Assembly: GCA_029262415.1 (NCBI GenBank)
Contig: JAJCZL010000009.1
Location: forward strand, 1 to 64,000
Direction: 5' to 3'
Source of the DNA: Deltaproteobacteria bacterium
Lineage (GTDB): Bacteria > Desulfobacterota > Binatia > UBA1149 > JAJCZL01
DNA: 64,000 nt
Shown here in pieces: positions 1 through 57,680 of the stretch. The notes under the pieces are model-generated. The model saw nothing but the letters and a program-made list of their open reading frames with translations, did not search any database and was not told where the DNA came from. A program made the translations under genes and the position numbers. Position 1 is the stretch's first letter. Each line of letters begins with the position of its first letter.

Positions 1-151
1 AAGCCGCAAGACAGGCCGGGTAGCGCCGGCCGGCTAGCTTCCGCGAGCTGAAACCGCGCTACATTCCGCGCGGAATGTGGATAACTCGGCGCAAAGTACA
101 CCGGCGGCACGATGATCGGTCCGCTCAGTCACTTGTGCAGAGCTTCCTTAG
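1..151 (+). mobile_element. Right end of an IS5-group element remnant (copy A1)
   Basis: Bases 6-151 match 47479-47624 with only three differences. The segment carries the last codons of a broken transposase (reading KTGRVAPAG then a stop), the palindrome ACATTCCGCGCGGAATGT at 61-78 running into GGATAAC, and ends at 131-147 in ACTTGTGCAGAGCTTCC, which is the terminal inverted repeat seen at both ends of the copy at 47 kb. The next four bases, TTAG, fit the YTAR target used by IS5-group elements, and they supply the stop codon of the reverse-strand gene that follows. The left end lies outside the window, so the size of this copy is unknown. Confidence 0.75.
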
Positions 152-23517: not shown

Positions 23518-23735
23518 GAAACCGACTCAAGACTCACCCGCCCGGGCGAGTCGGTCAGTGATGTGGCGAAATCGAGCGCGAGACCGTCGAGCAAGGCTGC
23601 GCGGCGGATCCTGGAGGTTATCCACATTCCGCGCGGAATGTGCAGCCGAGCCTGTCATTTAACCGCTCCGCCGCGCTCATGCCGGCGAGTCTACATCAGC
23701 GCCTCTGAAACCTTGAGCAGTCTTGGGTCAATCGC
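23518..23735 (+). mobile_element. MITE-like repeat, copy B1
   Basis: A 218-bp non-coding element flanked on both sides by CTAG (23514-23517 and 23736-23739). A second copy lies at 57483-57680 in the opposite orientation, about 90 % identical by hand alignment apart from a roughly 20-bp segment present only here. The ends form an imperfect inverted repeat (CCGACTCAAGACTC against TTGACCCAAGACTG). At 23617-23641 it carries GTTATCC followed by the palindrome ACATTCCGCGCGGAATGT, which together contain the DnaA-box sequence TTATCCACA. Near the left end there is also the short palindrome CGCCCGGGCG. It fills the gap between apaG and gor without breaking either. Confidence 0.75.
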
Positions 23736-47246: not shown

Positions 47247-47266
47247 TGTCAGTTTCTGCCGGCGAG

Positions 47267-47620
47267 GGAAGCTCTGCACAAGTCTTTCGAAATGAGATAA
47301 GTACGTAAGCCGAGCGACTCGTGAGGAGGTTGGGCGATGGGTGAGCAGCGTAGGTTCGCGTCGGTAGCGTGCAGTCGGAAAGGAAAGGTAACGCGCCGGG
47401 AGCGATTTCTCGCCGAGATGGACGCGGTGATACCGTGGAAGCCGTTGCTGGGCATGAAGCTGCACGTGGGGACGGACTGCAAGACAGGCCGGGTAGCGCC
47501 GGCCGGCTAGGTTCCGCGAGCTGAAACCGCGCTACGTTCCGCGCGGAATGTGGATAACTCGGCGCAAAGTACACCGGCGGCACGATGATCGGTCCGCTCA
47601 GTCACTTGTGCAGAGCTTCC
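47267..47620 (+). mobile_element. Internally deleted IS5-group element (copy A2)
   Basis: A 354-bp element bounded by a perfect 17-bp inverted repeat, GGAAGCTCTGCACAAGT at the left and its complement at 47604-47620. The right flank is CTAG, the left CGAG, so a 4-bp target duplication of CTAG type has decayed by one base. It keeps the transposase start but has lost most of the gene. The last 142 bases match the remnant at the window start. At 47534-47558 it holds the 25-bp palindrome plus DnaA-box-like core. The element ends exactly where the stop codon (TAG in CTAG) of the next reverse-strand gene begins. Confidence 0.8.
47337..47510 (+). pseudogene. IS5-family transposase, collapsed to 57 codons
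   Basis: GAGGAGG precedes an ATG. The frame reads KVTRRERFLAEMDAVIPWKP, the usual N-terminus of IS5-group transposases, and is then joined to LLGMKLHVGTDCKTG, which belongs to the catalytic region far downstream (family form: GMKAHIGVDSKTG). The DDE residues beyond it are gone. Both breaks preserve the frame, leaving a short open reading frame without transposase activity. Confidence 0.75.
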
Positions 47621-48589
47621 CTAGATCCCGAGCACCAGCAAGCCGACGACGAGCGCGATGGCCATGATCACATGGATCACCGCAAAAAAGTGCGCCCATA
47701 GCGGATAGCGCAGGCTGTAAACGTTGACCCAAACCGGTAAAGGCAAGCGGCTCTTTACCATGTCGGCCCGGTGTAAGACTTGATTGAAGAACGTGGCGAA
47801 ACACAGACAGGTGCCGATCCAGATCGGAAACGACATAACGGCGAACGGCGCCTCTCCGCGAGAAAAGACGTAAGGCGCGCCGATCAGAACCGTAAGAAAC
47901 CCGGCAACCACGCCCAGGTTCTTCCAGTCTTCAAAGACCTGTACGTAGTAACGCGACGCACGCTTCACGCGCTCGTCAGTGGTAAAGCCCGGCAAAACGT
48001 CCGCGCACAGATCCACCAGGAACACGCCCAACGACAGATAGATCCCTGCGAGCAACACGCATTGAGCAACACTCGGGCCCGACGGCCGACCGAGCGCTGA
48101 CACCATAGCCGCGACGAAAACTCCAAGCGCAGCGATACAAGCAAACGAGTACAACTTCACACCCAGCTCTGCCGAGTGGAATCGGAGCGTACCGTCGGAC
48201 CGGCGTCGCTCGGCGATGCAAACACCGTCGACAGAGACTGTAGTCAGATCCCCGCTCGCAGCGACACGCTCGGCAACAGTCGCGAGCTCGGCCGCAAGCA
48301 CCGATTGAAACCAGAAGTGTGCTCCGACCAAGAAGAGAGCCAAAAGTGCAGCAGCGCTCGCGCCTGCCGTACGCGAAACTGCGAGTACCAGCCAAACGAG
48401 CATTGCCAGCAGCCAGAGCCTGTCGAGCCACCTGGTCAGCCCGAGGTACTCATGAACGGCGACGGTCGAGAAAGGACTCGGGCGGCTGCGCAGGCACAGA
48501 CTGGTCGACAAGCCCATGATCGCGGGAAAGAACATCATCGCGACGGCGTGAAGAAGCGGCGCGAAACTGTTCGGTGTAGCGGCGCCCAT
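47621..48589 (-). CDS. Hypothetical polytopic membrane protein
   Basis: A 322-residue protein with about seven to eight hydrophobic helices (for example LWLLAMLVWLVLAVSRTAG, LLALFLVGAHFWFQSVLAAE, SVAQCVLLAGIYLSLGVFLV and FAVIHVIMAIALVVGLLVLG at the end). A soluble loop of about 50 residues (AERVAASGDLTTVSVDGVCI) lies between helices. I recognise no family. The gene begins 12 bp after a ribbon-helix-helix gene and may be cotranscribed with it. Its stop TAG is part of the CTAG flanking the IS5 remnant; the protein ends in a normal-looking helix, so it is not obviously truncated. Confidence 0.65.
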   Translation of the reverse strand: MGAATPNSFAPLLHAVAMMFFPAIMGLSTSLCLRSRPSPFSTVAVHEYLGLTRWLDRLWLLAMLVWLVLAVSRTAGASAAALLALFLVGAHFWFQSVLAAELATVAERVAASGDLTTVSVDGVCIAERRRSDGTLRFHSAELGVKLYSFACIAALGVFVAAMVSALGRPSGPSVAQCVLLAGIYLSLGVFLVDLCADVLPGFTTDERVKRASRYYVQVFEDWKNLGVVAGFLTVLIGAPYVFSRGEAPFAVMSFPIWIGTCLCFATFFNQVLHRADMVKSRLPLPVWVNVYSLRYPLWAHFFAVIHVIMAIALVVGLLVLGI

Positions 48590-57482: not shown

Positions 57483-57680
57483 GAGACTGACCCAAGACTG
57501 CTCAAAGTTTCAGAGGCGCTGATGTAGACTCGTCGGCATGAGCGAGGCCCGGCTGCACATTCCGCGCGGAATGCGGATAACCTCCATGACCCGCCGCACA
57601 GCCTCGCGCGACGATCTCTTGCTCGATTTCGCCACATCACTGACCAACTCGCCCGGGCGGGTGAGTCTTGAGTCGGTCTC
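57483..57680 (-). mobile_element. MITE-like repeat, copy B2
   Basis: A 198-bp element, about 90 % identical to 23518-23735 but in the opposite orientation and lacking a segment of about 20 bp. Its flanks are CTGG and CTGA, decayed from the CTAG seen around B1. The 25-bp core lies at 57557-57581 with one change that spoils the DnaA-box match (TTATCCGCA). It sits in the 413-bp gap between the Flp pilin gene and the APH-ATPase gene; the remainder of that gap (57296-57482) must hold the pilin promoter. Confidence 0.75.

Follow-up and report, generated by a model that had tools for sequence, protein, structure and literature searches.

The window, by which we mean the whole 64,000-nucleotide stretch that was analysed, holds four copies of a 25-bp core consisting of an 18-bp palindrome followed by GGATAAC. 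Each copy lies in a transposon remnant or MITE of one of two families, here called A and B. The features are as follows.

61-85, plus strand: core, exact match with 0 mismatches
23617-23641, minus strand: core, exact match with 0 mismatches
47534-47558, plus strand: core with one change (ACGTTCC..), 1 mismatch
57557-57581, plus strand: core with one change (..AATGCGGATAAC), 1 mismatch
1-148, plus strand: family A, right part of an IS5-group remnant truncated by the contig start, 98.6% identical to 47266-47621
47266-47621, plus strand: family A, IS5-group remnant with terminal repeats GGGAAGCTCTGCACAAGT/ACTTGTGCAGAGCTTCCC
23518-23733, minus strand: family B, IS1182-like MITE with ends GATTGACCCAAGACT..AGTCTTGAGTCGGTTTC
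57485-57680, plus strand: family B MITE, 84% identical to 23518-23733

The positions and strands of the four cores agreed with the first-pass annotation, with 0 matches expected from shuffled sequences, and so did the pairing of the two A remnants and of the two B MITEs. The 9-mer TTATCCACA, which had been taken for a DnaA box, was present in three of the four cores; the copy at 57557 has TTATCCGCA instead. The MITE at 23518-23733 is bordered on each side by an apparent 9-bp repeat, TAGGGCTAG. Family A combines terminal repeats with a DDE transposase remnant, which places it in the IS5 group, and in a sister copy the transposase piece matched PF01609 (DDE_Tnp_1) above the cut-off (E 2.8e-6). 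The B transposase matched PF13751 (DDE_Tnp_1_6) below the cut-off (E 0.0016), over a piece of just 32 residues. Within A and within B alike, the core has the transposase remnant on one side and the right end on the other. When the two families were compared by BLAST, the core was the sole common piece (96% and 92% identity), and the remaining matches were the inverted self-match of the palindrome and chance matches of 7-19 bp. Because only these 25 bp are common to them, A and B are not homologous over their full length, and the earlier description of unrelated elements sharing one motif holds.

Across the genome (3.9 Mb in 83 contigs), the core was found at 69 places when up to 3 mismatches were allowed, most of them in A or B, and the reversed control gave 0. 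There were 35 A right ends of at least 48 bases at the core and 23 B right ends of at least 90 bases adjoining it. Right ends of A directly adjoin the core; those of B, save for one 29-base fragment, adjoin a palindrome or a piece of an HNH-nuclease gene. Empty A or B sites were not found in this genome; the act of capture is therefore not seen, as every intact A or B that was found carries the core. The exact 25-mer had no match in a database of other genomes' contigs, from which this genome's own records were possibly excluded, and an Rfam search gave no match. Copies of A and copies of B vary in the same two ways, with G or C after the palindrome (GGATAAC, GCATAAC) and with CGC or CGT, a pattern resembling the outcome of core exchange or of parallel mutation. 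At one locus (L046, contig C57, near 154940-154969), a 32-bp copy that is almost symmetric, GTTATCAACATGCCGCGCGGAATGTTGATAAC, lies outside A and B, and the other core of that locus belongs to a B element. At another (L012, contig C21, minus strand, about 735 onward), an A-type left part and core are followed by a reading frame resembling a phage or integron integrase (..LARKYPGASSEWRWQWI..), where the usual A right end would stand.

The palindrome alone, with no more than 1 mismatch, was present at 95 places (control 3), and outside A and B it occurred mostly at the HNH-nuclease gene. This association, which the first-pass annotation had missed, provides the most likely reason for the core. 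The gene occupies approximately 13 places, a rough count because several contigs end inside it. The palindrome, with consensus CATTCCSCGSGGAATG and often GAACATTCC...GGAATGTTC, lies upstream of the promoter region, often in tandem. Between 1 and 5 copies precede the start of the HNH genes, and the readable 5' sides in this genome have 2-3, spaced 47-51 bp apart. On the 3' side there is usually one palindrome within the ORF at its 3' end, the symmetric variant CATTCTGCGCAGAATG among them. Wherever an HNH gene end was readable here, the palindrome or a closely similar variant was present, either upstream or in the 3' end. Homing endonuclease genes interrupt their own target; here, intact palindromes were found on both sides of the gene.

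The C-terminal domain of the encoded protein is an HNH catalytic domain, as judged by PHROGs HNH families (E 5e-6 and 2e-7) and by HNH structures aligning at residues 280-364; the Pfam HNH match was below its cut-off. The N-terminal domain (pLDDT 87, pTM 0.80) is predicted to fold like a helix-turn-helix DNA-binding domain of the ParB/KorB type. This likeness rests on VIA-align, with both the whole model and the isolated domain. Residues 19-141 of the whole model aligned with ParB/Spo0J/Noc/KorB DNA-binding domains at Z up to 9.7. With the domain alone, the top five rows were ParB/Spo0J/KorB DNA-binding domains (Z 7.3-9.5, 97-117 residues aligned), followed by Raf1 (6.3), another KorB (6.1), and others at 4.0 or below. 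Foldseek lists were weak, and the E-values for the domain were not significant. Pfam helix-turn-helix models, including ParB HTH, gave no match up to E 10 in HMMER, whose filters drop weak matches. NCBIfam and PADLOC returned no informative family. An identity as a 13E12/DUF222 protein was rejected, Pfam DUF222 failing to match. The palindrome itself has a sequence likeness to a ParB-family site, as its core ATTCCCCGGGGAAT shares 12 of 14 bases with the Noc site ATTTCCCGGGAAAT (PMC7383237), with one change per half.

Another family of the order was represented by a genome, G010, with approximately 25 HNH genes and 48 matching stretches. Its HNH proteins are 53-56% identical in alignment to those of the present genome, and the palindrome CATTCCSCGSGGAATG occurs there at 82 places (control 0). 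Nearly all complete G010 copies that were checked have palindromes on both sides, one copy (L205) having it at the 3' end only, and the 3' palindrome lies 98 bp past conserved residue 346 in most copies. It is translated as TFPGEC in G010 and HSARNV in the present genome, in different reading frames, so it is the DNA and not the peptide that is conserved. A conserved peptide as the source of the motif was ruled out by this frame shift. Palindrome variants were also found upstream of HNH genes in G002 (Deltaproteobacteria bacterium OFTM64) and G011, and the 5' site in G002 continues into TTGATAAC, which resembles the A/B core. At up to 1 mismatch, the palindrome was absent from all of eight genomes of the order in which no HNH gene was found (G003-G009 and G012). 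A sister genus (G001) is the exception: homologues of A and B retain the palindrome there, despite which no HNH gene was found at E 1e-10. No relatives were found in viral contigs and plasmids, and a profile search at phylum level, in which few candidates were scored per genome, gave no further ones. A distant HNH relative in G092 (L229) contains within its reading frame a perfect palindrome of 22 bp, TCACTCCCACCGGTGGGAGTGA, unrepeated in that genome; being present only once, it gives no test of co-evolution.

The palindrome is also a place where different DNA is joined. At one G010 locus (L257), the palindrome is the exact point at which an HNH 3' end meets an HNH 5' leader; at another (L264) the 5' flank is joined to the 3' flank. 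All 13 examined G010 palindrome loci without a full HNH gene matched the element in part, some of them over no more than the palindrome and a few neighbouring bases. The G010 palindromes are not exact element ends, because the copies share sequence beyond them. In the present genome, an HNH gene begins 7 bp past a B core on contig C37, HNH 3' ends are fused at B cores on C6 and C34, and HNH 5' sites adjoin a B right end on C73. Four of the 13 HNH places are thus beside B, which would have a probability of approximately 1.5e-8 if places were random and independent; that independence would break if B had spread a single insertion, although the joints on C37, C6, and C34 are three different ones. 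The first-pass annotation had offered the core as a functional unit taken up by both elements or as a target into or out of which elements moved; these data support the former, and they show the core as a place where other DNA, the HNH genes beside the B core, is joined.

We consider it probable that a selfish HNH gene family uses the core as its site of recognition and recombination, and that both transposon families captured this site. The same junctions could arise from repeat recombination or cruciform breakage without a nuclease. Accordingly, the palindrome might be a mere hot spot for RecA-dependent or replication-slippage recombination, spread passively between repeats, and act as an autoregulatory operator at the HNH genes. 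Any short repeat can yield junctions at palindromes, and tandem upstream palindromes before a TTGACA-like promoter would suit an operator. However, an operator does not explain the second palindrome, which lies within the ORF at its 3' end. The retention of the palindrome in a shifted reading frame between genomes at approximately 55% protein identity and the three different joints of HNH genes beside the B core also speak against this explanation, which we regard as unlikely. It is highly improbable that nested insertion of one MITE brought the core into the other family, unconnected with the HNH gene. The core is common to only two main transposon families, both of which fixed it before multiplying, as such an event would have it; yet just 25 bp are common, without any additional sequence from the other element, and the palindrome also marks every HNH gene end that was readable and recurs in genomes from other families. 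Least probable is a DnaA-binding site of palindrome and TTATCCACA, selected in both elements for replication or regulation: 18 of 48 distinct A/B copies end in GGATAAC (TTATCCACA) and another 18 in GCATAAC (TTATGCACA), both of which we take to fit the relaxed DnaA consensus, but the 9-mer varies (TTATCCACA, TTATGCACA, TTACCCACA), is missing from the majority of HNH sites, and has decayed in relatives, where TTATNCACA has given way to TTATCAACA (in the G001 A homologue and at the G002 HNH gene) and CTATCCACA (in a B homologue) while the palindrome, the conserved part, stays. The DnaA part of the first-pass reading is therefore not upheld.

With the core read as the site of a selfish HNH gene family, the HNH protein would bind the palindrome through its predicted ParB/KorB-like domain, for which ACATTCCGCGCGGAATGTGGATAAC is a candidate duplex target. 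It may then cut or nick at the palindrome, and repair would join DNA there. Such joining could spread the HNH gene to other palindromes, delete it and leave solo palindromes, or make chimeras. Two IS families would have gained the site between the transposase gene and the right end, and MITEs of both would then have multiplied it.

Parts of this arrangement are known from other systems. ParB, Noc, and KorB, with their parS, NBS, and OB sites, resemble the HNH protein in the predicted helical DNA-binding domain (approximately 110 residues aligned), and the palindromic site of the HNH gene is close to that of Noc. The HNH protein differs in that no ParB CTPase domain was seen and an HNH domain is present instead, and its palindromes flank its own gene at either end. 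A fusion of ParB-CTPase to HNH (PMC12704722) likewise has ParB-type and HNH parts in one protein. There it is the CTPase fold that is joined to HNH, whereas the present protein has the predicted DNA-binding domain, and the passages considered report no DNA site. Free-standing phage-type HNH homing endonucleases are also stand-alone HNH genes with several copies at different places, and the present gene is likewise found beside copies of its flanking palindrome. In contrast to a homing gene, which interrupts its own site, it carries intact copies of its presumed site on both sides, and it is chromosomal and multi-copy. REP/RAYT systems also combine a gene with palindromes on both sides and solo palindromes elsewhere, but they have a Y1 transposase in place of the HNH protein, and the solo copies here mostly ride on MITEs of DDE transposons.

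A more novel reading, which we put forward only tentatively, is a mobile HNH nuclease of a new kind. Its ParB/KorB-type domain would find a palindrome like the Noc site flanking its own gene, it would spread and recombine through that palindrome, and the site would have been taken up by two families of DDE transposons. The present observations suggest how a DNA-binding module of the chromosome-partition type could become a selfish nuclease, and how one selfish gene's target site can be acquired by transposons; a multi-copy HNH family that had been uncharacterised gains a concrete candidate DNA target.
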